59,787 nt of DNA from a virus: positions 1 to 59,787 of IMG/VR virus record IMGVR_UViG_3300031521_000069. One strand, given 5' to 3'. Numbering within the stretch: the first letter of the stretch is position 1; each line of letters begins with the position of its first letter. The notes below the pieces were generated by a model, which saw only the letters and a program-made list of their open reading frames with translations, did not search any database and was not told the origin of the DNA. The position numbers and the translations under genes are program-made. Below, piece after piece: positions 25,537-48,015 of this stretch.

Positions 25537-27075
25537 TCAGGAATAAGCTTCGACGTTAATATTGATCGAATGAACCGCCCCGTCAAGATTTGCAATGATT
25601 GTTGACGGAGGCCCGATTCTGGAGGCCCGATCCGATACCGTCATGTTCTGAAGCGGCGTAAACGAAATCGTATAGGCCGGGTCGATAGAAACCTTGTTAT
25701 CGTTGCTGGCGAGTTGAATCGGTCTTGCCGCAAAAGTGCCGTTTAAAACGTAACGGCGGCAAATGCTATCCTCGGCATTGAAAATAAGGTTAACGCCGTT
25801 TGTGGTATACGGAACCTTATTATTTTGCAGGAAAACATTGTATACAGCAACCTGAAGCTCTTCCTTGAAGTTGTCCAAGTTAATCCGGTCGTCAATAAAC
25901 CAAGATGTGTTTGAATCAACGCCTTCACGAGTGGTACGACTGTTGTTGCCAACCAGCGTAAACGTATTGATACGCTTGCTCGTCAATACCGCCAATTCCG
26001 ATTCGGTAACAGGTACGGTCGGGATACCGTACAGGTCTTTGAATTTCATCGTAATTGTGGAATTCGAAGCCGAATAGTTGACGCTCAGGGCAATCGCCAG
26101 AATCGCCATTTCCGGATAATAATACGGGTTGTTGTGATAAACAACAAACGTCCGAGTATAACCGGCAGTCTTACAAAGATACCCGATATCGGTTGTTGAG
26201 CCGCTATCATGGGCAAATGCCGAATTTACGCACAGACCAATGATTCCGGTTCTTGCTTCACAATATGCGGCGGCAAGAGTTTGGTCGCTACTGTCGCGAT
26301 AAGTTTTGTCGAGGACTTTTCCGTAAACAAACTTTCCGGAAGCGGAAGCGGCCTCATCGATATACGCCAGTTCACTGGCAATATCGCCCGGCAAATAGCC
26401 CGGAACAGTATAGGCGGTTTGCACGTCATTGGTATCGATGTATTGACCACCTAAGAAGCCCGAACCGGAAACATCAACGCCGGTCGCGGCGGCACTCAAA
26501 TAAGATACTGTCGAAGAAGCCCCAGCAATTCCCGAAGTGATCCTCATCGTCCCGGCTGCCCCGGCAACAACAGTACAAAGGGTATACCCTCCGGTTGCGA
26601 CGGCGCGAAGTTTGGTTTGAATTACGGTTGCGACTGCCGCCATTGTAGCACAGGAATGGAAATCAAGAGCGGTAATCGATTGTTCCGAACCGTCAATTGA
26701 AATTTTGAAACTACCGGTCGTAACCGCCGTCCAAGTTGCAATGGTTTGTTGGACTGAACCGAGTTCAAGATAACCGGCAACAGCAGCCTCAAAAATTCGG
26801 GCAATTGCCATCGTCTTGGCTCGCGGAGATTGAGAAAAGAATGCTGTCGCCGCCTTGTAAGCTTCGGAGGATGTGGCGAAACCGTCGGCGGTGACAGCAC
26901 TCAAAGATGAATAGAAACGAATGCGGTTCGAATCTTGGTCAAAAGTTGCGTTGGGGGTACAGAAACACGGAATAGAAAAATCCGTTGTGGTTTCTGCCTG
27001 GGGTTTGGTGATGTTGACGGTAACATCAATATCCCTGGGCAGCGATTTAGAGCTGGAAACAATAATGGAACTCAT
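25537..27075 (-). CDS. tail sheath protein (DUF3383-like)
   Basis: 512 residues. The N-terminus IDVTVNITKPQAETTTDF and C-terminal sheath region (YTISFTPLQNMTVSDRASRIG) resemble DUF3383 contractile sheath proteins. Residues about 110-205 are an inserted domain (TWTAVTTGSFKISIDG, ITALDFHSC, TGGYTLCTVV, RITSG) that recurs in the cement protein at 31821-32711. The sheath surrounds the tube and contracts on infection. Confidence 0.85.
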   Translation of the reverse strand: MSSIIVSSSKSLPRDIDVTVNITKPQAETTTDFSIPCFCTPNATFDQDSNRIRFYSSLSAVTADGFATSSEAYKAATAFFSQSPRAKTMAIARIFEAAVAGYLELGSVQQTIATWTAVTTGSFKISIDGSEQSITALDFHSCATMAAVATVIQTKLRAVATGGYTLCTVVAGAAGTMRITSGIAGASSTVSYLSAAATGVDVSGSGFLGGQYIDTNDVQTAYTVPGYLPGDIASELAYIDEAASASGKFVYGKVLDKTYRDSSDQTLAAAYCEARTGIIGLCVNSAFAHDSGSTTDIGYLCKTAGYTRTFVVYHNNPYYYPEMAILAIALSVNYSASNSTITMKFKDLYGIPTVPVTESELAVLTSKRINTFTLVGNNSRTTREGVDSNTSWFIDDRINLDNFKEELQVAVYNVFLQNNKVPYTTNGVNLIFNAEDSICRRYVLNGTFAARPIQLASNDNKVSIDPAYTISFTPLQNMTVSDRASRIGPPSTIIANLDGAVHSININVEAYS

Positions 27076-30677: not shown

Positions 30678-31799
30678 TTAGATACCTTCCATATGGGCAG
30701 CGGAGCGCGGATACCGAACAACGCAACCGGCGCTATAAGCATACCAGAGCAGAATGTAGGTAAACAAATTCTGCTGAACCGGCATACTCTGAGCTTCTTC
30801 AGGAATTTCAACGGCAATTTTGTCCTCTTTCTTCACATAAGCGGACATCTTGCCGGTGCCGTTATAACCGGCACCTTCGTATTCATTCACCGGAATGATA
30901 TCTTCCAGGCTCTTGAAATACGGGCTGTTTTCCAGAATATAGGTCATGATCGAAATATCGCGGTTTTCCAAACGGCGGTTGACCAGATAATTCCATTTGC
31001 TCGGGGAGAGCAGGAGCTTATTGGGCCGTTCGCGCATTTTGGAATTTACCCAGATCGTCATTGCGATACCGGAAACGTCGGCAAGAATTTCATCTGCCGT
31101 CTTGGATTCCCAATTCGTATCTCCATTTGCGCCGACGTCAACCACGCCGACCGGAATTAACGGGTTATTCAGGAAGCCGGGAACGCCAGCATCCGGCAAT
31201 CCATAGAATGCCTGGTCATTCAATGCTTCTTCAACGCCGCGAAGAGCAGCAGTCTGGCGAATCTGTTCCGGCGAATAACGGGCGCGGCCATTGCGCTGGG
31301 CAACAACAAAGCCCTGGAGTTCCTGAATGGTCCAAGTGGCACCAATCCCCCACATTACAACCGGGTATTTGATTTCCTTACCGCCGCCGTCTACAAACGG
31401 AACGTCTTTGCCGCCAGCATTGATTACTTTGGCCTTGGCGAAGAAGTCATAGACTTCGGACGTAATTTCTTTTACGCCAGCACCGCCCTGATTGATGATC
31501 GGGAAAACGTTACGGAAGGGGAGGATTTCATATTCCACTTCGTAAGCTTTTGCGGTCAGGAACTCGAGCGCACGGTTGAAAAACAGTGACTGATTTTCAA
31601 CGGCGTCGGTTGCGAGGTGCATACCGTCCGCTTTCAAAGAATGGGCCAGATAAATCCGGTCTTCATGCGTCAAATTGGCGTAAAAACTTGCCGCCGCATC
31701 AGCAACATGAATCTTGCTCATGCCGCCCATGCTGGTCACCGGCTGAACGCCGTTGCCCTTCGCATATTTGGCAGAATCTCCGATATAAGATACGTTCAT
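30678..31799 (-). CDS. major capsid protein (DUF2184-like, HK97 fold)
   Basis: 373 residues from ATG 31799, with GGAAAGGA 9 bases upstream; a second ATG at 31808 lies too close. Features: LPFRNVFPI, YPVVMWGIGATWTIQELQ, KLLLSPSKWNYLV, FTYILLWYAYSAGCVVRYP. The pattern fits DUF2184 capsid proteins, which share the HK97 fold also used by encapsulins. High expression is expected. Flanked by cement protein and DNA-binding-like head protein. Confidence 0.85.
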   Translation of the reverse strand: MNVSYIGDSAKYAKGNGVQPVTSMGGMSKIHVADAAASFYANLTHEDRIYLAHSLKADGMHLATDAVENQSLFFNRALEFLTAKAYEVEYEILPFRNVFPIINQGGAGVKEITSEVYDFFAKAKVINAGGKDVPFVDGGGKEIKYPVVMWGIGATWTIQELQGFVVAQRNGRARYSPEQIRQTAALRGVEEALNDQAFYGLPDAGVPGFLNNPLIPVGVVDVGANGDTNWESKTADEILADVSGIAMTIWVNSKMRERPNKLLLSPSKWNYLVNRRLENRDISIMTYILENSPYFKSLEDIIPVNEYEGAGYNGTGKMSAYVKKEDKIAVEIPEEAQSMPVQQNLFTYILLWYAYSAGCVVRYPRSAAHMEGI

Positions 31800-31820
31800 T
31801 TTATTCATTCCTTTCCTGTT

Positions 31821-32711
31821 TTAGCGGAGGCCTTTAACATCAATGATACCAACCTGACCAACGCTGTAAGTGCCGGTATAAATCGCCGACCCCAACTGCG
31901 TCCGACCCGAACCGCTCGCGGCGTAAATTTCGCCCGTAGCATCATCGAAATAAACACTACCGCCACCGGCAGTAGCTTCAAGGCAAAGTACCTTAATAAG
32001 ACCGTCCTGTCTGAAGGCACCAACATGTCCTTCGCGAACCGTAGTGGTCTTGGAGGCAGCACCGGCTCCACCTTCTTCGGTAATACTTCTCAGGGATACG
32101 CCCAAAATGGTCGCCGCAACAACAGCAGCGGTACCAACAACAGTCTGGAAACTATCCCAACCGAGCATCACGTTAATTTCAATGCCGCTTCCACCGGTAA
32201 CAACGCCGGGATAAGTAACACTCGAAGTCGTGCCGGTCGTGCCGGAAGTAATCTTGAACTGTTCGGTGGCATCATCCCAAACAACCGTGGCCAGCGTATA
32301 ACCGCCAGTACCGATTGCCCGAACCGCCGTCTGAATTACACTCGCAATCCCATCGAGATCGGTTGCGGAATGAAAATCAAGGGCAGTAATATTGTGAGCA
32401 ACGCCGTTAATCTTGATACTGAATTCACCGGTGGTAATCGCAGTCCAGGTCGAAAGAACCTGAATCGGAAAACCAGTGCCGATCAGATAACCGGCAGAAG
32501 CCGCATGAATGCTGGTCGTGCCCAAACGAGCGCGAGGCGGCGGGCCGTAGCTGGAACCGAGACTAACAACACGTCCAAAAGGAATGTCGCCATTTTCGGC
32601 AATAAACGAAAAATCGCGGGTCGGATTGGAATCCGCATTCGCGCCCGGCAGACCGTCGGACAACACGCGATCATACTGCTTCTGTACATAAGAGGGAACC
32701 GCGACACTCAT
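31821..32711 (-). CDS. capsid cement/decoration protein
   Basis: 296 residues. The N-terminus YVQKQYDRVLSDGLPGA and C-terminal decorated beta domain (KVLCLEATAGGGSVYFDD) are similar to structural cement protein Gp24/DUF2190-type products next to the capsid gene. Residues about 80-180 are the same domain inserted in the sheath protein (TWTAITTGEFSIKING, ITALDFHSA, TGGYTLATVV). Overlaps the protease/scaffold gene by ATG/TAA. Confidence 0.75.
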   Translation of the reverse strand: MSVAVPSYVQKQYDRVLSDGLPGANADSNPTRDFSFIAENGDIPFGRVVSLGSSYGPPPRARLGTTSIHAASAGYLIGTGFPIQVLSTWTAITTGEFSIKINGVAHNITALDFHSATDLDGIASVIQTAVRAIGTGGYTLATVVWDDATEQFKITSGTTGTTSSVTYPGVVTGGSGIEINVMLGWDSFQTVVGTAAVVAATILGVSLRSITEEGGAGAASKTTTVREGHVGAFRQDGLIKVLCLEATAGGGSVYFDDATGEIYAASGSGRTQLGSAIYTGTYSVGQVGIIDVKGLR

Positions 32712-33550
32712 TATTTGCCTCCATTGAGTTTCAACAGCCGAGCTTCTTTCGCTACCTGAACAAAACTTTTCTTCGAAGTATTTTCCGGAGCTTCATCGTT
32801 TGCCAGAATCTGCATGTCATGTTCCCATGAATCAATCTTTTTCTGGCTGGTCTTTACGGCAGCGTTGAACATGCTGTCAAGAGCTTGGGGATGCAGGGAT
32901 TTGGTAACAACGCCGGGCATCTGCTTTTTGATTACAGCACGTTTTACCGCATCGCCGTCGAATTTACCGTCGCGCCCGATATAGCTATCGACCGCAAAAG
33001 TCGAACCGAGAATTTTGGAAGCAACGGCGGTCAAACTCAACATCTTGCCGACCGCAGTTTCCGCGCTATCGCCTTTTTTCTGCATGTCAAGGAACCTCTT
33101 GCAATAATCATATGCAGCCTGATCCATCTTGCCGACTTTACCTTCTTCGAGTTCAACCTCGAAAATAGTATCATCTTCGTCGACACCTTCTTTCATTTCC
33201 TCGGCTTCTTCTTCCGGAGTTTCTTCAGCGGATTCCTCTTTGGTTTCTGCTTCATCTTCTTCGGTTACTTCGCCGTCATTGTCTTCTTCGCCGTCTTCAA
33301 GATCGTCATCATCGACGCCGGGAATTTCGACCTTCTTATCGTCGTCTTCACCGTCTTCCTGAATTTTGACATCCTTTTCATCCATTTCTTCAACTTCCGC
33401 TCCTTCGCCTTCCAACTTCTTAGCGACTTCGGACGAAATTTCGGAAACGTTTTCTTCGTCTTCGTCAGTCGCCAAAAAATAGCGATAACGAGCCGTCGGC
33501 TTCTGGGCTTTATCAAGAGCCTTCGCCTGTGCTTTTCCAAACTTTCTCAT
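32711..33550 (-). CDS. nested scaffold protein (internal start)
   Basis: Within the protease gene an in-frame ATG (about codon 200; MRKFGKAQAKALDKAQ) has AAAGGA 8-10 bases upstream. Initiation here would yield a 279-residue scaffold without protease, like Nu3 within lambda C. Confidence 0.6.
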   Translation of the reverse strand: MRKFGKAQAKALDKAQKPTARYRYFLATDEDEENVSEISSEVAKKLEGEGAEVEEMDEKDVKIQEDGEDDDKKVEIPGVDDDDLEDGEEDNDGEVTEEDEAETKEESAEETPEEEAEEMKEGVDEDDTIFEVELEEGKVGKMDQAAYDYCKRFLDMQKKGDSAETAVGKMLSLTAVASKILGSTFAVDSYIGRDGKFDGDAVKRAVIKKQMPGVVTKSLHPQALDSMFNAAVKTSQKKIDSWEHDMQILANDEAPENTSKKSFVQVAKEARLLKLNGGK

Positions 33551-34147
33551 TGTTTGTTTTCCTTTTACTTTATTCTCAGTGCTGTCGCACACTCGACAAC
33601 TTGAACCGCAACGTCCATTTTGAACCAGAGCAACATGGTTCGGCATCAAATAAAACTGAACAGCTCGATACTTCTGACCGTCCTTCGAACCTTCCTGACT
33701 GCGATACGCCGTCTCATAACCGGCAGAAAGTTCATCGTAATCGTCAGATTCTTGAAGTTTATCAATCGCCCATTGATCGTGGATCATGATGTCGTTTATG
33801 ATATATGTTTCACCATCGACAACTTGAACACGAGCATTTGAACCGGTTGTTCCAACAATAACTTTTTTCACCGTCTCCGGCGTTACTTCATTTTCTTCCG
33901 GATGTTCCATCGTGATCGGAATGTTATTGAAATAATTGCAGCATTCCTTGAGCGCTTCCGGCGGACGGTAAACGGTAATCAATTCACCGTCAGCAACGAC
34001 GGAACCGTCTTCACATTGGACATTGGAATATTGGAGTAAACCAGATTTGGCGATTCGACAGTCCGGTAGGAGTAAGTATCCGGCAGGGTGAATCCTGCGT
34101 TTACTTCCCTGGGTCTTGATGAAATCGACAATCTTTAAAGTCTTCAA
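32711..34147 (-). CDS. prohead protease fused to acidic scaffold (DUF2213-like)
   Basis: 478 residues. The N-terminal 190 residues are a DUF2213/U35-like serine protease: His in PITMEHPEE (about H82), Ser in YDELSAGYET (about S141), and NHVALVQNGRCG. A linker leads to a strongly acidic D/E segment (about 225-330) and an alpha-helical C-terminus, as expected for a scaffold that is digested during maturation. Starts MKTLKIVDFIK. A promoter lies just upstream. Confidence 0.82.
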   Translation of the reverse strand: MKTLKIVDFIKTQGSKRRIHPAGYLLLPDCRIAKSGLLQYSNVQCEDGSVVADGELITVYRPPEALKECCNYFNNIPITMEHPEENEVTPETVKKVIVGTTGSNARVQVVDGETYIINDIMIHDQWAIDKLQESDDYDELSAGYETAYRSQEGSKDGQKYRAVQFYLMPNHVALVQNGRCGSSCRVCDSTENKVKGKQTMRKFGKAQAKALDKAQKPTARYRYFLATDEDEENVSEISSEVAKKLEGEGAEVEEMDEKDVKIQEDGEDDDKKVEIPGVDDDDLEDGEEDNDGEVTEEDEAETKEESAEETPEEEAEEMKEGVDEDDTIFEVELEEGKVGKMDQAAYDYCKRFLDMQKKGDSAETAVGKMLSLTAVASKILGSTFAVDSYIGRDGKFDGDAVKRAVIKKQMPGVVTKSLHPQALDSMFNAAVKTSQKKIDSWEHDMQILANDEAPENTSKKSFVQVAKEARLLKLNGGK

Positions 34148-35319: not shown

Positions 35320-36417
35320 TTACAATGTATCGAAGTCCGGAATTACGGGATCAGCAAAACATCGGCAGAGAATCGGTTTTCCCGGCGGACCGTCGGGAGG
35401 CGGTTGACGAAACGGTTTTCCGTCCGGCGCAATCGGCGGCTTCGCCATTTTTTGAAACAAAAAATACTGTCCTTCCCGATCCCAATGATTTCCATGATAT
35501 TTGCTATTCTTATCGACATCCGGGTATAAACCATTCGGATTTCCAGCAACTCTCCGGTCTCTAGAATTACGCCAACAATACCCCTGCACCCCACAATTCT
35601 GCATCCTGAGATGGTTGAAATCAGAAAATGCTTTTGCCGTCTGATCTCGGGCAATCAATTTCGCTTTTGTCTTCGTCGCCTTAGTTAAATCCATTAACGC
35701 TTGGATCATCCCGCCTTCCGGCACCTTAACCCCGTTCACATTATCTTTAACCAAGGTCTGTATATCATCAAAGTATTTTTTCGGAATACTAGAAATCAAA
35801 TTCACGTTTTCTTTTACCTGAGCATCAAAAGCATCCTTCAATCCCTTTTCGGTCATAATGGTCATCAAATCAATTCCGGCAGCTTTTTTAAATTGAGCAT
35901 AAAACTTTCGTTTGCTCTCTTTGTAAGTTTGCAGGGTTATATCTTTTGCGGTCGCCTCGTAAGCGTAGAGTAGGTCTTGATATTTACGCCGTAACTTTTC
36001 CAGCCGGTGATTAAATTTTTCGAGCAGGGTTTGATCAGCTTCAAATTTTCCGATCAATACTCCATATGGCCGGACGGATTGTTCCGTGATCAACCAATTT
36101 TCGCCCTCGTGTATTGCACCCTTAATTTTACCCGTGGAAATGTCTCGGATAACCTGTTTTTTAAGCACCCCAACCATCCGGGCAACCTCGTATGCGGTCA
36201 AATAACGAACGGCGTCTGTGGCTTGTTTAAACGTTAATTTTGCGTTTTCCTGAACTTGAGCTTTGGAAAGCTTCTTTTGCTGTTCCTCGCTCATCTTCAG
36301 AATCAGGGGCTTAAGCTGGAGTTCATAATCGCGAGCAAGACGACGAGCCAATTCAAGTAGCTTCGCCCGGTACTGGGCGATTAAAGTTGGATATACTTGA
36401 ATTGGCTTGAACTTCAT
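35320..36417 (-). CDS. minor head/head morphogenesis protein (Mu gpF/SPP1 gp7-like)
   Basis: 365 residues. A long helical N-terminus and a C-terminal domain with KLIARDQTAKAFSDFNHLRMQNCG, YCWRNSRDRRV and PGKPILCRCFADP, the signature of Mu gpF-like head morphogenesis proteins (RDxTxK, then RH, then CRC). It associates with the portal. It interrupts the series of leader proteins. Confidence 0.85.
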   Translation of the reverse strand: MKFKPIQVYPTLIAQYRAKLLELARRLARDYELQLKPLILKMSEEQQKKLSKAQVQENAKLTFKQATDAVRYLTAYEVARMVGVLKKQVIRDISTGKIKGAIHEGENWLITEQSVRPYGVLIGKFEADQTLLEKFNHRLEKLRRKYQDLLYAYEATAKDITLQTYKESKRKFYAQFKKAAGIDLMTIMTEKGLKDAFDAQVKENVNLISSIPKKYFDDIQTLVKDNVNGVKVPEGGMIQALMDLTKATKTKAKLIARDQTAKAFSDFNHLRMQNCGVQGYCWRNSRDRRVAGNPNGLYPDVDKNSKYHGNHWDREGQYFLFQKMAKPPIAPDGKPFRQPPPDGPPGKPILCRCFADPVIPDFDTL

Positions 36418-36817: not shown

Positions 36818-37102
36818 TTAACGATTAACCTTCTCCATTGCCGCCCAGATTTCACCCGAAATAGATTTTGCACCGTTGAGTTTGCTCGAGACCTTCCCAC
36901 TATCATCAATCGAAATATAACCATTACGATCATCGAGGCCATAAATGCGAACATTGGTCGAATTAGCCCATATTTTGCAAAGCCTTCCAATTTTTTCATT
37001 ATTGGTTTCCGCGACGAGGGCGTTAATAAAATTTTGCGCAACTGCCTTTCTTTCGTCAATAGTCATTTTATCGTCACCGACCCAGACCTTAATTATTTTC
37101 AT
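36818..37102 (-). CDS. late protein with MKIIKVWVGDDK leader
   Basis: 94 residues: leader MKIIKVWVGDDKMTIDE, then a mixed domain with NVRIYGLDDRNGYISID. Its 5' end overlaps the portal 3' end by 14 bases, and the DNA coding for KIIKV is present twice in a row at that junction. Confidence 0.78.
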   Translation of the reverse strand: MKIIKVWVGDDKMTIDERKAVAQNFINALVAETNNEKIGRLCKIWANSTNVRIYGLDDRNGYISIDDSGKVSSKLNGAKSISGEIWAAMEKVNR

Positions 37103-38687
37103 TTTTTACCTTAATTATTTTCTTGGCTTTATTTATAGAATCTGTTTCTTCCCATTCCGGCACCACATCTTCTTCCTGTGCGGCCTTCAAATTTTTAAGC
37201 GTTTTGTTTGGACGCCCCAGATAATTATCTTTATTTGCCTCTTCGGCGGCAACTTCCGGGTCTACCTGATAAACCCCATCACGTGCTCTTTCAAGTTCGT
37301 CGGCAACATCCATCGCATCCACCAAATCAACTTCATTCGCTCCGGTTTCTTTTTCCAGCCGTTCAATTTCTCCTTTCGTCAGGTTGTTAAAAATCTTCCG
37401 TTCCATAACTTCTTTCCGAGCAATCTTCAGATCGATAATTTTATTGTCCATGGACGCAGTAAGCATATCCAAGAACTGTCTATCGGTTTCCATTTTCTTT
37501 TCCGGCGATACTCTTTCAAGGGCTGGGAAGACAACGTCAAAATCAGCCGGGAGATTTTCGTTAAATAAGGACGGAACAATCCAGCGCCGGTACAGGCTCA
37601 TCAAATGGGGTTTAGCTCCGGAAGACTGATATTCTTCAATCATATCGTAATAATTGTTCATGTCGCCTTCGCCAGTAGCATCCAAACCCTTGGCACTAGT
37701 GCCAACCAGCTTTGTAACCGGATACCCTGTGGCGGCGCTTACAGTAGTATAAAACCGCTCTAAAATTTGATCCAAACCGCTAAAGGCCCCGACCTCAAAG
37801 TTCTCCAACTTCTCTTTAGTATCAATAATTGCCATGTTATTATTGGACATCTGATAGTTCATCAGATTAACCCGCTTCAAAAATGCAGCGGTGGCTTCGT
37901 CGTCCGCAACAATACCCAGCAAATCATCGACACTCAATACCGGTACGGAAGCCCGGAACAAAAGTGAGGCAATAGCACTATCAACAATACCAGCGTTCCT
38001 GACCGCCTCATAGACGTTGGATAAAATAGATTGACCCCAATAAAGATTACGCTGCCTTTCATACCAGGGCAAAAACTCACCGCCGAATCTTTCTACCCGA
38101 GAATGATGGACAATAGCTCCGGTTAAAAATAATTCTTCATCCTTAACCCCGGTCTGTTTTAAAGCAACTATACCGGCGGAGCCAATTGTATAAGTAATCG
38201 GCATCAGAAAATCGTCAGCCAACGGGTTCATGAAATTAATACGAGCGGCATAAGCTTGCCAAGCGTCAAACATCCGCAAACAAAGAAGGGAATTATGCGG
38301 CAAGTAATCGGGAATAGGATTCCTCATTGCTCCCCAGGTCGCATTAGTCAGCGCGACAATAAGGGAGCCGCCAAAAATACGTTCTGATTTCAAAGCGGAT
38401 AAGAGTAATTCTTTTGTTCCCAAATGTTCATCATATTTTTTGAGAAGATTAATCTTATCCGGTTCCCAAGACGGACAATAGATATCCCAGCCTCGCTTTA
38501 ATGATTCTTTAGGGAGCAAGTCAACAATACGCCGCCCCAGCCATCCTTCATAAATATCGACCAGCTCTTGATAACCAAAAAAGTTTTGAGGAGAGAACAC
38601 AGATTGTTGGAGACGGTCGGTTCCGCTGTTCATGCTCGTAACGAGATTGACCAGCGAATCGACCTGTTTCGTTTTGGTTATCTTCAT
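37089..38687 (-). CDS. portal protein (DUF1073-like)
   Basis: 532 residues. FFGYQELVDIYEGWLGRRIVDLLPKESLKRGWDI, SERIFGGSLIVAL, and TGYPVTKLVGTSAKGLDATGEGDMNNYYD match DUF1073 portals. The protein begins MKITKTKQVDS, a variant of the leader, and its last residues are AKKIIKVKNENN. It forms the dodecameric DNA gate of the head. It is 13 bases downstream of the ferritin-like gene. Confidence 0.87.
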   Translation of the reverse strand: MKITKTKQVDSLVNLVTSMNSGTDRLQQSVFSPQNFFGYQELVDIYEGWLGRRIVDLLPKESLKRGWDIYCPSWEPDKINLLKKYDEHLGTKELLLSALKSERIFGGSLIVALTNATWGAMRNPIPDYLPHNSLLCLRMFDAWQAYAARINFMNPLADDFLMPITYTIGSAGIVALKQTGVKDEELFLTGAIVHHSRVERFGGEFLPWYERQRNLYWGQSILSNVYEAVRNAGIVDSAIASLLFRASVPVLSVDDLLGIVADDEATAAFLKRVNLMNYQMSNNNMAIIDTKEKLENFEVGAFSGLDQILERFYTTVSAATGYPVTKLVGTSAKGLDATGEGDMNNYYDMIEEYQSSGAKPHLMSLYRRWIVPSLFNENLPADFDVVFPALERVSPEKKMETDRQFLDMLTASMDNKIIDLKIARKEVMERKIFNNLTKGEIERLEKETGANEVDLVDAMDVADELERARDGVYQVDPEVAAEEANKDNYLGRPNKTLKNLKAAQEEDVVPEWEETDSINKAKKIIKVKNENN

Positions 38688-38700
38688 TCGGATTCCTGCT

Positions 38701-39054
38701 TTATTTGGAGAGTTTCAGAATCCGTTTGGTATCAGCCGCTTTTGCCGCCTTGGAGCCGGAAGCCAAAATCAATTTAGCTTCTTCCATTCCCCGCTCGCTA
38801 AGCGAACAATCTGCTCCATCATTCAACAAAGCAATCGCGGCCCGGAATTCGCCAACATGAACAAGCTCTTCTTCGGCAATCGAATTGAGCAAGGCAGCGA
38901 TTTTTTCGTTGCGAATTGATGTAGCAAGTTGGGAATACAGATTTGCGGCCTCAAGTTCTGCGGCCAACATTTCACGCAATGCCCGGATAAGTTCTTGGTC
39001 GGTAAGTTTCCGGTCAAGATCAAGTCCGGAAAAAGAATCTGCGAATTTTGCCAT
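38701..39054 (-). CDS. encapsulated-ferritin-like (EncFtn/rubrerythrin-type) protein
   Basis: 117 residues. Two helices carry LAAELEAANLYSQLATSI and SIAEEELVHVGEF. The residues E33, Y40, E63 and H66 have the spacing (7, 23, 3) of EncFtn E32, Y39, E62 and H65, which form the ferroxidase centre at the subunit interface of encapsulin ferritins. E35 matches entry-site E34, whereas the E31 and W38 positions are Ala32 and Leu39. The C-terminal ~35 residues are a tail ending ADTKRILKLSK. It has its own promoter and is the first gene of the portal/capsid operon. Iron oxidation is inferred from residues, not shown. Confidence 0.78.
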   Translation of the reverse strand: MAKFADSFSGLDLDRKLTDQELIRALREMLAAELEAANLYSQLATSIRNEKIAALLNSIAEEELVHVGEFRAAIALLNDGADCSLSERGMEEAKLILASGSKAAKAADTKRILKLSK

Positions 39055-40633: not shown

Positions 40634-40708
40634 TGGAGCCGGGTGTCGGAGTTGAACCAACGACCGATTGATTACAAATCAATTGTTCTACCACTGAACT
40701 AACCCGAC
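40634..40708 (-). tRNA. tRNA-Thr (anticodon TGT)
   Basis: 75 nt with encoded CCA. Acceptor GTCGGGT/ACCCGGC (one G-U), D arm, anticodon stem ATTGA/TCAAT with loop TTTGTAA, TpsiC arm GTTGG-TTCAACT-CC. The only tRNA I find. Confidence 0.95.
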
Positions 40709-43042: not shown

Positions 43043-43558
43043 TATTCCAAATCTCCTTCGGTTATACCGGCAAGTTCATTTAAGTCACGCCGGATTGATT
43101 GAAGCTGAATTTCAAGTCCCGACAATTCTTTTTCATCAAGACTATTACCTATTGTATCATAAAAAGTAGTTTTTTCGTCAACATAAGACGAAACCTGGGT
43201 TTGCTTTATCTTCTCCATAATATCGTCAATCTGTTGCAACTTGGATTTACCCGGTTTTGCCCGAACAAAACAATCGTCACAAAAAGAAAATTCTCGAGCC
43301 GAGTCGTGCTCAAAATTAGAAAGTTTATCGTCATACGATATTTCTTCTTTATTTACATAAAGAAAAGGATACCCATTTTTCCAAATCTTAATTACCCCGT
43401 TTTTCCATTTACGTCCACATTCGAATGCAATTTGTTGGACTTCTATCGATTGTTCGGGTGTAACCCTTATTTTTATATTCTGTCCTTTATACAAAGCCCA
43501 TCTAAAATTCGGATGAGTTTCTATCTTCTTTTCTTTGGATTTATTCACTTGCCAGCTC
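43042..43558 (-). CDS. hypothetical protein (GTG start)
   Basis: 171 residues from GTG 43558, with AAGGAG 8 bases upstream inside the thyX end. The middle has FCDDCFVRAKPGKSKLQQ; C-terminus is a coiled coil. No family recognised. Confidence 0.65.
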
Positions 43559-44428
43559 CTTGTTATATGTGATTTCGGCGGGGAAATCTGGCAGGTTAAC
43601 CAGGAGCCGCATAACTTGCCGCATTTGCGGGTGAGCCGCCTTGTCGAGGCGCAATGCAAGGATATTTTGCCACTGTTCGAACGTTGCGGTCATTATGACC
43701 TCGGTCTTGAGCGAGTTGGGCAATACCGACCGGGCTTCTTGGGGTTTGCAGCCATTATTAATCATGTAAGCATAGTATTGCTCGCTGTTTGCCATGGCGC
43801 GAAACCATGTTTGATAATTAACCCCATTAATGTTTTTAACCCAATCAAAACAAGGGCGAATAACTTGCATATTGCCGGAGCAATCAACATACCGGGTTGA
43901 CTCCTGACTAAACGACGCAACTCGGTGTCGAACCAGTTCGTGGGACACGCCCCGGTCACAGATAAACCGAACAGTCATGTAATCGGCAGCTTCCGCGACA
44001 GAATACCAATCCATGTCACAACGCTTTTCTACCGGCACAAATTCACCAAATAAATCCTCCGAAAATTTGATAAAGGGTTCTGCCACGCCGTTAGCAAACC
44101 CTCTTGTATGGCGACAAAAGGCGACAAACAAATTTCTCCAGGCTCGGACATTACCGGTGGTATCCCCATTTTCATCTTCGATAATAAAAGATCCGTGGAA
44201 CCCGTAGCAAAAATTCTTATAAGACGGATTTTCTCTACTCTTGAGAGTAAGATGAACGTGTTCCAGAATTGAATCGTGTTTGGTTTTGATCCGGGCCGCA
44301 ACAAATCTTCGCGCCGAATCTTCAGTGATTTTATCTTCGCTCTTATAACACACCCGACCGCAAAGTTCGATTTTTTTCAACGGGTCGTGCTCGTGAATAA
44401 TTTCAACGCTGGGTTCAATAATCTGCAT
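43541..44428 (-). CDS. thyX: flavin-dependent thymidylate synthase ThyX
   Basis: 295 residues from ATG 44428 (AAAGGAG). The ThyX motif RHRxxSxxxxSxRY is complete: RHRVASFSQESTRY (about 167-180). N-terminal IEPSVEIIHEHDP and CYKSED are also typical. It methylates dUMP to dTMP using CH2-THF and FAD. It boosts dTTP supply for phage DNA and fits the partial ribonucleotide reductase at 5715. Confidence 0.95.
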   Translation of the reverse strand: MQIIEPSVEIIHEHDPLKKIELCGRVCYKSEDKITEDSARRFVAARIKTKHDSILEHVHLTLKSRENPSYKNFCYGFHGSFIIEDENGDTTGNVRAWRNLFVAFCRHTRGFANGVAEPFIKFSEDLFGEFVPVEKRCDMDWYSVAEAADYMTVRFICDRGVSHELVRHRVASFSQESTRYVDCSGNMQVIRPCFDWVKNINGVNYQTWFRAMANSEQYYAYMINNGCKPQEARSVLPNSLKTEVIMTATFEQWQNILALRLDKAAHPQMRQVMRLLVNLPDFPAEITYNKELASE

Positions 44429-44429
44429 T

Positions 44430-44939
44430 TTATTCTCCTTTATATCCCAATTGTTTTGGCGCAATCCAATAAGACGCACCCTCGCCCTTTACCCGAATTT
44501 CCAAAACGGATTCGGGATCAAAACTATGTTGAGTAATTTCAACAAACTCCCCATTCAAAAGAGCGGAAGTTCCGATTAAAAAACACTTGGCCCAATTGGG
44601 AGCTAGAGATAAGCTATTATCGGGAACAACAATAAGAGAATCCCCATTAGCAGAAAACAATTTGAGCCTAACCAGCCCGTTGCCCAAATTACTTTCTAAT
44701 TGACAAAACAAGTGAAAACCTTCCCAGGCATTTGTTAGAACATAATCGCCCGGCAGGAAAGTTTCGTTTTTAACAGGATCGTGTTCTTTATCAACAACGA
44801 CCTTCTTCCTTAGTTCCACCAATTCCTCGAGCCAAGTGGCAAGTTGTCGATGTTCGGCGGCGCAGGAACAATCCGGATTTGTATTATTATAAGAATCCGC
44901 AACTTCCCTTGAATGTTTTATTGCTTCTTCAATATTCAT
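44430..44939 (-). CDS. hypothetical protein
   Basis: 169 residues: helical N-terminus with a Cys pair (CSCAAEHRQLATWLEELVELRK) and a beta-rich C-terminus. The N-terminal part resembles small 'EHRQLAxWLxEL' helical phage domains. Unassigned. Confidence 0.6.
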   Translation of the reverse strand: MNIEEAIKHSREVADSYNNTNPDCSCAAEHRQLATWLEELVELRKKVVVDKEHDPVKNETFLPGDYVLTNAWEGFHLFCQLESNLGNGLVRLKLFSANGDSLIVVPDNSLSLAPNWAKCFLIGTSALLNGEFVEITQHSFDPESVLEIRVKGEGASYWIAPKQLGYKGE

Positions 44940-46533: not shown

Positions 46534-48015
46534 CTATTTGATAGACGTATTTATTACCGACCCGTCCGGCAGCTTTAAATTAATCCTAGAGGAATCCGCG
46601 TATGAAACGCCGCCAGAACGCTTGACAACCGGCGACCCGGTATCTTGTCCGACCGGAGGCACAGGAAGCCCGGCAACGGTTAAATAATTACATCCGCCGC
46701 TTCTTTTTGCCGCCTCTGCCTCTTTTTCTTGTTTGCCCCGGACACCGCCCATCATCTTCACATAATCAATCGCCCCCTCTTTCATAATCTCATCGTTGTA
46801 AGTATAGCGCAGGGCGTCAACGGCATGATTAAATTTATCAATTGGCTCCCCGACAACTTTCCCGGTCGCCGGATCGGTTTTGTATTTATAGAGCTGAAAC
46901 TCGTCGGTAATATTTTCCTCCGGCAATCCTTGATCCAAACATCTGGGGTGGACAACAATATTCCAATGCTTTAACCAGTCCAGCCCCATTGTGATACTCC
47001 CGGCCCCTTTCTTAACCGCCTCTATTCGATAATGACGATTTTTCAAATGCTTAATCAGTTCCGGCCTTGCACTTTCGGCCTTTACTATGTACCCCTTGAT
47101 TCCTGATATCAGGGCAAATAAGTCGGTATCGATTTGATCCGGGTCAAGTTCAATTTTAAAAATACAATCCGCGATATAAATTTCCTTTGTGTTCCAATCT
47201 AAATACGATCTTATCAAACAACACGGGTCGGGGAAGAAACCGAAGTCAACACCGAACTTCCAGGGGATAATTGTATCAGCAGGAACAATAAAATCCCGGA
47301 CGCACCATTTTCGAATAATCGTCGCCTCACTAATCTTCTGGGGCAAACCACACCAGATATAATTATAATCATCTTCGGAATTACTTTTATCCGACATCAT
47401 CAACTCATACAGCGGTGTATCACGGAACCACGGGTTATCCCACCAGTTGATATAAACATGAACCGTATCCGGTGGAATCGAAGCACCGGTAACGAACCTA
47501 TCATGAACCGGTTCATGTTCGATTTTCCGATTATAGCTGAACCACACTTCCGACCCCGGCTTACGAATCGTCGGTAACAATAAATCCAAACTCATTTTTG
47601 AAACCATTTGAGCTTCTTCAACCCAGCAGATGTCATAACCTTCGTATGATTTCAGGTTGTCGGCGGCACTATGATCTGCTCCGGATTGCCTTAAGCCGGA
47701 AAAACTTATCTTCCCGCTGTTATGGGGACAAAGAATTTCTGCCTCTTTAATCATAAACCAAGGACGTAAACCGAATTTATCAATTTTCTTTTCAATCAAT
47801 GCCTTAACAGAATCTTTCAAAGAATGTTGAACTTCGCGGCAGCATAGCGCCCACTTGCCATAGCAGAAAACTTCTTTGATAATCTGCTCGGCAAAGAAGT
47901 GAGATTTAGCACCGCCGCGACCACCCTCGGCAACTTTATATCGGTGGGGCTGGGTTAATTCCTCGAGCTTTTCAGGATACTCAATGTTTAAATCAATATT
48001 TGGTTGGTCGGTCAT
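46534..48015 (-). CDS. terL: terminase large subunit
   Basis: 493 residues. ATPase: Walker A-like AEGGRGGAKS (about 29-38), Walker B with catalytic Glu ICWVEEAQ, coupling motif FSYNRK. Nuclease: VDFGFFPDPCC, later ESARPELI, and DKFNHAVDALRYTY, the acidic triad of Terminase_3/PBSX-type nucleases. It packages DNA. Its ATG overlaps a tiny upstream reading frame by TAATG and has no good ribosome-binding site, so it is probably translated by coupling. Confidence 0.92.
   Translation of the reverse strand: MTDQPNIDLNIEYPEKLEELTQPHRYKVAEGGRGGAKSHFFAEQIIKEVFCYGKWALCCREVQHSLKDSVKALIEKKIDKFGLRPWFMIKEAEILCPHNSGKISFSGLRQSGADHSAADNLKSYEGYDICWVEEAQMVSKMSLDLLLPTIRKPGSEVWFSYNRKIEHEPVHDRFVTGASIPPDTVHVYINWWDNPWFRDTPLYELMMSDKSNSEDDYNYIWCGLPQKISEATIIRKWCVRDFIVPADTIIPWKFGVDFGFFPDPCCLIRSYLDWNTKEIYIADCIFKIELDPDQIDTDLFALISGIKGYIVKAESARPELIKHLKNRHYRIEAVKKGAGSITMGLDWLKHWNIVVHPRCLDQGLPEENITDEFQLYKYKTDPATGKVVGEPIDKFNHAVDALRYTYNDEIMKEGAIDYVKMMGGVRGKQEKEAEAAKRSGGCNYLTVAGLPVPPVGQDTGSPVVKRSGGVSYADSSRINLKLPDGSVINTSIK

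Follow-up and report, generated by a model that had tools for sequence, protein, structure and literature searches.

An EncFtn-type ferritin-like gene in a phage head gene cluster and its viral relatives hint that phage heads may serve like encapsulins, the iron-storing cages thought to have arisen from such heads

To our knowledge, iron oxidisers of the EncFtn kind (encapsulated ferritins) have been described only as the cargo of encapsulin cages from bacteria. Without a shell, EncFtn oxidises iron, but it has to be enclosed in one to store it (PMC5012862). Phage capsids are believed to have been domesticated as encapsulins, and phage-like neighbourhoods were excluded from a large survey of encapsulins (PMC8346489). 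No word starting with "phage" occurs in a 2024 review on encapsulated ferritins (PMC11202242). Here, we describe an EncFtn-type gene that is located in a phage head gene cluster, directly ahead of the portal gene. It is encoded in the 59,787-base virus record IMGVR_UViG_3300031521_000069 from IMG/VR (G000 in our survey); this whole stretch of DNA is referred to as the window. We consider it probable that its product is an EncFtn-type ferroxidase that is packaged in the phage prohead and retained in the capsid, with the HK97-type head playing the part of the encapsulin shell. No published EncFtn in phage heads was found in the open-licence literature; an earlier report elsewhere is possible.

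The closest described system, by sequence (E=1e-10) as well as by fold (probability 1.00, 37% identity), is the EncFtn of Pyrococcus furiosus (5n5e), which has the E/Y/E/H residues alike. There, EncFtn is the N-terminal domain of a fusion to encapsulin, whereas the window codes for a free protein within a phage head cluster. EncB and EncC of Myxococcus xanthus (7s5c, 7s5k, 7s8t), which are EncA cargo, have the same two-helix EncFtn fold and, like the window protein, carry a terminal basic peptide on their C-terminal tail. The Myxococcales relatives end in KRLTVGS[LM].., whereas the window protein ends in KRILKLSK and is devoid of the GSL core. Among phages, the T4 internal proteins (ipI, ipII and ipIII) combine diverse small bodies with one shared terminal peptide, as does a set of small tagged proteins from the window (see below), and EncFtn from T4-like loci starts with a peptide of the T4 internal-protein pattern. 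T4 internal proteins are, however, not ferritins, and the tag from the window is a different peptide, which is absent from the EncFtn N-terminus. Dps and Mn-catalase, encoded by Gratiaviridae and other phages, are also phage enzymes from the ferritin superfamily but belong to different families. They are read as acting in the infected cell, and no capsid targeting or portal link is described for them in the part of the source covered here (PMC8008677).

The gene is encoded on the minus strand and has an ATG start codon (39054..38701, 117 aa); the plus-strand frame across 38701-39054 is not open. Residues 1-108 of the protein match the NCBIfam family EncB_fam (NF058679) with 68.3 bits (E=5e-19), which is below the curated score of 90 bits for this family; the protein from viral locus L009 reaches 90.5. 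There are further matches to TIGR04535 (E=1e-11) and to the Pfam domain Rubrerythrin (29.0 bits, with a gathering score of 22.8). In a sequence search against the PDB, the best match is P. furiosus EncFtn (5n5e, E=1e-10), followed by EncC (7s8t, E=1e-8). These matches uphold the assignment as an EncFtn-type ferroxidase, which had been made from the letters without database searches (the sequence-only reading), and they place the gene in metal-binding ferritin-like families rather than in a structural, non-metal helical family. The open reading frame (ORF) encodes an EncFtn-type ferritin-like protein.

An AlphaFold2 monomer model, which was computed from 40 homologues, has a mean predicted local distance difference test (pLDDT) score of 80.8, with values of 92-98 in the core. 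The predicted helices (residues 19-46, 50-77 and 87-99) form two long antiparallel helices and a short C-terminal one. When the model is compared to the PDB by Foldseek, the top matches are EncFtns (P. furiosus, EncC and EncB, then those from Nitrosomonas europaea, Rhodospirillum rubrum and Haliangium ochraceum), interspersed with some other proteins of the ferritin-like kind. The ferroxidase residues of R. rubrum EncFtn are Glu32, Tyr39, Glu62 and His65, the di-iron ligands being E32/E62/H65 with Y39 (PMC5012862). E33, Y40, E63 and H66 of the window protein correspond to these residues. Their positions had been predicted correctly, and, together with R27 and A36, they are invariant in 40 of 40 aligned homologues (20 viral and 20 cellular EncFtn sequences), so that the E/E/H cluster and its tyrosine have not been lost in any of them. 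E33, E63 and H66 (with Y40) are thus a putative di-iron ferroxidase site, which would be catalytically active. In EncFtns, this site is formed between two subunits of an annular decamer, whereas the model covers a monomer. A deviating entry site had also been pointed out (Ala32 corresponding to Glu31). This difference is present but is not unusual, as EncFtns vary at position 31; the conserved residue is at position 34, either Glu or Asp (PMC11202242), and is retained in the window protein as E35.

The location directly ahead of the portal gene is confirmed: only 13 bp separate the EncFtn stop codon from the ATG of the PF06381 portal gene (38687..37089, minus strand). On the other side, a 135-bp gap separates the gene from the upstream ORF on the same strand. 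It had been considered the first gene of the head operon, which is plausible and consistent with this gap; promoter-like sites upstream (3 seen, 1.1 expected) are weak and uninformative as evidence. No encapsulin shell gene was found among the window proteins scanned (not every ORF from the window being included). An ordinary encapsulin operon was considered and was rejected because no encapsulin-type shell gene was found among the proteins scanned; the shell gene is that for an ordinary PF09950 phage capsid beside genes for portal, protease and terminase.

A tblastn search of the window protein against 50,697 phage records gave no match; among these records, only Eggerthella phage LE2-3 was reached, and only via diverged queries. 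The window protein itself matches only an identical copy, which is located on another contig. When viral contigs were scanned with profiles, about 30 distinct viral EncFtn loci were obtained, and all eight viral EncFtns tested from loci L006 to L016, either free or as a domain, match EncB_fam (E=5e-16 to 7e-26). The closest relative is L006, with an EncFtn that is 41% identical (first scan). In L006, too, EncFtn is ahead of the portal gene (its product being 62% identical to that from the window), with small tagged genes between. Portal searches for similar phages led only to the near-identical contig, to L006 and to one remote portal that has no neighbouring EncFtn. Cellular EncFtn homologues are largely from archaea and anaerobes.

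Several of the viral EncFtns have N-termini that resemble capsid-targeting peptides. In T4, internal proteins reach the prohead core by means of targeting peptides, and foreign proteins can also be brought into heads in this way (PMC3012670, PMC5694885). In six loci (L007, L008, L012, L013, L014 and L016), EncFtn is encoded beside a T4-like terminase and a neck gene, in L007 also beside a tail sheath stabiliser gene. These six EncFtns start with MSKFKDYITE, MGKFKDYLTE, MSRLSNYLTE or MNKFKDYMTE; for comparison, T4 ipII and ipIII start with MKTYQEFIAE. The motif M-x(3,8)-[YF]-[ILM]-x-E is found in 27 of 103 ORFs from the T4-like loci, compared to 4 of 1053 in background loci. For 22 viral loci, the likeness between the EncFtn N-terminus and the N-termini of its neighbours was compared with two nulls, N-termini from other loci and inner segments from the same locus. 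The N-terminus is shared with neighbours in L007, L012, L014 and L016, which form one clade (p=0.0002), but not significantly in L008 and L013. Outside the T4-like loci, the EncFtn from L108, a locus on a 411-kb contig, starts with MNPRKAFEQALAK, and both adjacent genes start with close variants (p=0.0002); a second copy of the tag is internal to this EncFtn. Tag sharing is suggestive in L104 (p=0.045 and 0.0002). There is no significant tag sharing in L009, L010, L105, L109-L113, L115, L117, L118 and L120-L122 (L112 being marginal with one of the two nulls). An early impression that nearly every viral EncFtn has a neighbour-shared tag was tested and had to be cut back to the T4-like clade and L108. 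T4-type N-termini (MRF..YLxE starts) were also observed in L007, L012 and L016 on proteins that resemble, by eye, a P-loop kinase, a HAD-type phosphatase and DnaJ. From this inspection by eye, uncultured T4-like phages may carry a mixed head cargo.

In other loci, the EncFtn domain is fused to a head protein. L114 codes for an 885-aa protein in which a PF06381 portal (8e-77) is combined with both an EncFtn-like domain (Rubrerythrin, 2.6e-8) and one of the topoisomerase IB type (2e-26). That a topoisomerase IB-like catalytic domain is tied to a portal (L114:4474-7131) is odd in itself. The portal from L119 (PF06381, 5.5e-8; phrog_146, 1e-43) has a C-terminal EncFtn, and the C-termini of portals face the head interior. 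L129, a close relative of L119, has an N-terminal EncFtn domain together with a match to DUF2213 (1.1e-6; phrog_530, head maturation protease, 5e-8). This fusion is encoded downstream of a separate PF06381 portal gene, and its ORF runs off the contig. The linker RTDANL is found just before the EncFtn domain in both L119 and L129. The fusion partners, portal and DUF2213, are the families that flank and follow the EncFtn gene in the window.

Eggerthella phage LE2-3 (MW679026, 112 kb), which has a gene for a tail sheath, is an isolated and cultured EncFtn carrier. As in the window, its EncFtn domain, with the ligand residues present, belongs to a protein from the head cluster, but this protein (LE23_74, QXJ36676.1; L097:7395-10241) has 948 aa with repeats and is not a free small protein. 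Its gene is located between that for the head-protease-like LE23_71 and the capsid gene LE23_78, four genes before the major capsid protein gene. LE23_74 has nine [KR]TA-type motifs, compared to 0.24 in shuffled sequences; such motifs also occur at the portal C-terminus (one, KRTAS; L125), in LE23_76 (one) and in LE23_68 (two). They may be processing sites (for the head protease) or binding sites. Gene 71 is annotated as "tRNA synthetase", but its matches are to families of inteins and of head maturation proteases, and the portal gene also matches an intein (L097:1445-4558 and L125:40058-43279).

The window contains a tag system of its own. Eleven small ORFs on the minus strand, between 25101 and 37102, start with MK[IL]I[KR]VKxxD or a variant (Table 1), and L006 has eight more (L006 6406-11355). 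When all 19 tagged proteins were compared by blastp-short, they matched via their N-termini, and no match was left once the first 12 residues had been removed. An interpretation as paralogues was rejected, as the bodies have nothing in common past residue 12. Recent DNA repeats were rejected as well, because the tag codons differ synonymously between genes; thus, selection acts on the peptide. No informative PHROGs family was obtained for the tagged proteins. Tag-like ends are also found on the portal (N-terminus MKITKTKQVD, C-terminus KKIIKVKNENN) and at the N-terminus of the protease. The tag resembles the capsid targeting of T4, but would use a different peptide. This decapeptide tag family is apparently undescribed and is interesting apart from the ferritin. 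The copy at the portal C-terminus directly precedes the tagged start of the next gene (37085-37130), a region in which the DNA AAAATAATTAAGGT is repeated; the portal from L006 is without this C-terminal extension.

The C-terminus of the EncFtn from the window resembles the variant tags MRILKVK and MRTLKVK (RILKLS, p=0.020; RTLKIN in L006, p=0.031, these two values not being independent). With a first position-specific scoring matrix, no convincing tag was detected in this C-terminus; with these two variants added, the match is no more than suggestive. The terminal 8-mer is kept between the EncFtns from the window and L006, while the linker has diverged (score 23, compared to at most 18 in 936 linker comparisons). 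In the Myxococcales relatives, KRLTVGS[LM] is found at this place, which in Myxococcus EncB/EncC is that of the cargo-loading peptide; the window EncFtn has no C-terminal cargo-loading peptide of the TVGSL type. As a head-targeting signal, the C-terminal peptide is suggestive only.

Table 1. Features of the head gene cluster and associated genes in the window
Feature	Position	Strand	Remark
EncFtn-type ferritin-like gene, 117 aa	38701..39054	-	putative di-iron ligands E33, E63, H66 with Y40
EncFtn C-terminal peptide KRILKLSK, candidate head-targeting tail	38704..38727	-	counterpart KRTLKINRS in L006
Portal protein	37089..38687	-	PF06381 E=5.9e-70
Small tagged ORF MKIIKVWVGDD, 94 aa	36818..37102	-	
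Small tagged ORF MKIIKVKCSD, 128 aa	36417..36803	-	
Head morphogenesis / Mu F-like protein	35320..36417	-	phrog_324 E=6e-46
Small tagged ORF MKIIKIRKTDD, 70 aa	35095..35307	-	
Small tagged ORF MRILKVKIGDD, 112 aa	34760..35098	-	
Small tagged ORF MKIIKVKCKDD, 101 aa	34453..34758	-	
Small tagged ORF MKIIKVKIGDE, 68 aa	34233..34439	-	
Head maturation protease, N-terminus MKTLKIVD	32711..34147	-	DUF2213/phrog_530
Protein with DUF3383 and Phage_cement matches	31821..32711	-	profile match
Major capsid protein (shell gene of the cluster)	30678..31808	-	PF09950
Small tagged ORF MRTLKVKKTDE, 83 aa	29132..29383	-	
Small tagged ORF MKLIKVKIGDE, 83 aa	27524..27775	-	
Small ORF with variant tag MKILRTLKMKKAD, 71 aa	27094..27309	-	
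Second, full-length DUF3383 protein	25537-27075	-	profile match
Small tagged ORF MKVIKVKVSDS, 59 aa	25342..25521	-	
Small tagged ORF MKIIRVAKKGD, 76 aa	25101..25331	-	
Terminase large subunit	46534-48015	-	

Three further observations concern other genes from the window. In the ORF at 31821-32711, the N-terminal part matches DUF3383 and the C-terminal part Phage_cement. A tRNA-Thr (TGT) gene is encoded at 40634-40708 on the minus strand. The ORF at 43541-44479 is ThyX-like by eye (flavin-dependent thymidylate synthase, RHR..S motif).

Packaging in the head is supported because relatives carry capsid-targeting N-termini or fusions to a portal or a protease homologue. The sequence-only reading had proposed packaging for the window phage as one of several options; this gains support from relatives (T4-type N-termini, the L108 tag, the fusions), but not from the window gene itself. 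Another of these options, protection of the packaging machinery, would be a purely conjectural role. The argument is built on sequence: the family, fold, site residues, gene position and tag-rich cluster in the window, and the T4-type N-termini and fusions in relatives. From these we infer packaging in the window phage, catalysis and a protective role. EncFtn would be made together with the portal at the onset of head assembly and would be recruited to the prohead core, possibly through its C-terminal peptide. Within the head, it would form a metal-dependent oligomer, and Fe2+ would be oxidised at the E33/E63/H66(Y40) site. Reactive iron would thereby be kept off the packaged DNA, which would be shielded from iron-driven oxidation. 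Beyond the window, it seems reasonably likely that several phage lineages independently load EncFtn into their heads (by targeting peptides, by portal or protease fusion, or as part of multi-domain proteins), their virions being functional counterparts of ferritin encapsulins. A number of points weigh against packaging. The N-terminal tag of the cluster is not on the window EncFtn, as judged from a check of its N-terminus and from the tag map, and its C-terminus matches the tag only weakly (p about 0.02). Among the 22 loci, clear significance is confined to two lineages, with one more being suggestive, and many viral EncFtns are without an evident tag. The portal fusions from L114 and L119 are sisters in the tree and probably go back to one event. 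The searches led to a single distant relative of this type of phage, and the Foldseek E-values are modest (best 3e-3), though with a probability of 1.00.

The alternatives differ in where, or whether, the enzyme would act. EncFtn might be packaged but act only after ejection, in the first minutes in the host (iron or peroxide scavenging, or counter-defence), like T4 internal proteins. This overlaps with the explanation that we prefer on packaging and differs on the place of action; we entertain it tentatively. T4 IPI is injected and inhibits a restriction enzyme, and T-even internal proteins share only the targeting peptide (PMC3012670); the other proteins with capsid-targeting N-termini from T4-like loci, kinase-like and DnaJ-like by eye, would likewise be a mixed cargo. 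A fusion to a portal or a protease homologue, however, would keep the domain attached to the particle, barring its release by cleavage. Such fusions, like T4-type N-termini, are also without ready meaning for a cytosolic enzyme, and the position ahead of the portal gene is kept in L006. It is thus unlikely that we are dealing with an auxiliary metabolic gene for a soluble ferroxidase, which lowers free iron and oxygen stress in the infected cell and is only incidentally close to the portal gene. On its own, EncFtn oxidises iron without storing it (PMC5012862). Such a role would nevertheless be in line with the sources of cellular EncFtn homologues (largely archaea and anaerobes), with the lack of a clear N-terminal tag on the window protein and with the Dps and Mn-catalases encoded by gut phages, which are read as in-cell oxidative protection (PMC8008677). 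The tight linkage and fusion to the portal could also point to a non-catalytic assembly helper or to a structural bundle on the portal side, for which the EncFtn fold would have been reused. We consider this very unlikely, as E33, Y40, E63 and H66 are invariant in all aligned viral and cellular members, which would not be demanded by a purely structural role.

A further reading concerns the origin of the gene. Encapsulins are thought to be derived from HK97-type phage capsids (PMC8346489), and the gene had been suggested to be a trace of this link, that is, a relic of a phage state that preceded EncFtn encapsulins. In a tree of 109 EncFtn domains (66 columns, unrooted, with many forks unresolved), about 10 changes of the viral label are needed, and at least five are forced by supported branches. 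Viral EncFtns are thus placed in several positions among cellular ones, and an ancestral relic is therefore disfavoured; we regard it as very improbable, even though the tree that argues against it is based on only 66 columns and is unrooted. The scatter is more in line with repeated acquisition than with a single viral lineage of ancestral origin, and tags and fusions that differ by lineage also fit repeated later acquisition.

Packaging of EncFtn, as proposed here, would mean that phage heads take on a role like that of encapsulins, their supposed iron-storing descendants. If this is true, the pairing of capsid and ferroxidase works in a virus, and there are several loading solutions to compare. 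As Eggerthella phage LE2-3 is a cultured carrier, the packaging idea is testable now. Phage virions would gain an active iron chemistry, which would matter for the stability of genomes outside the cell and for phage iron traffic, and such virions might hold iron or shield their DNA against it.
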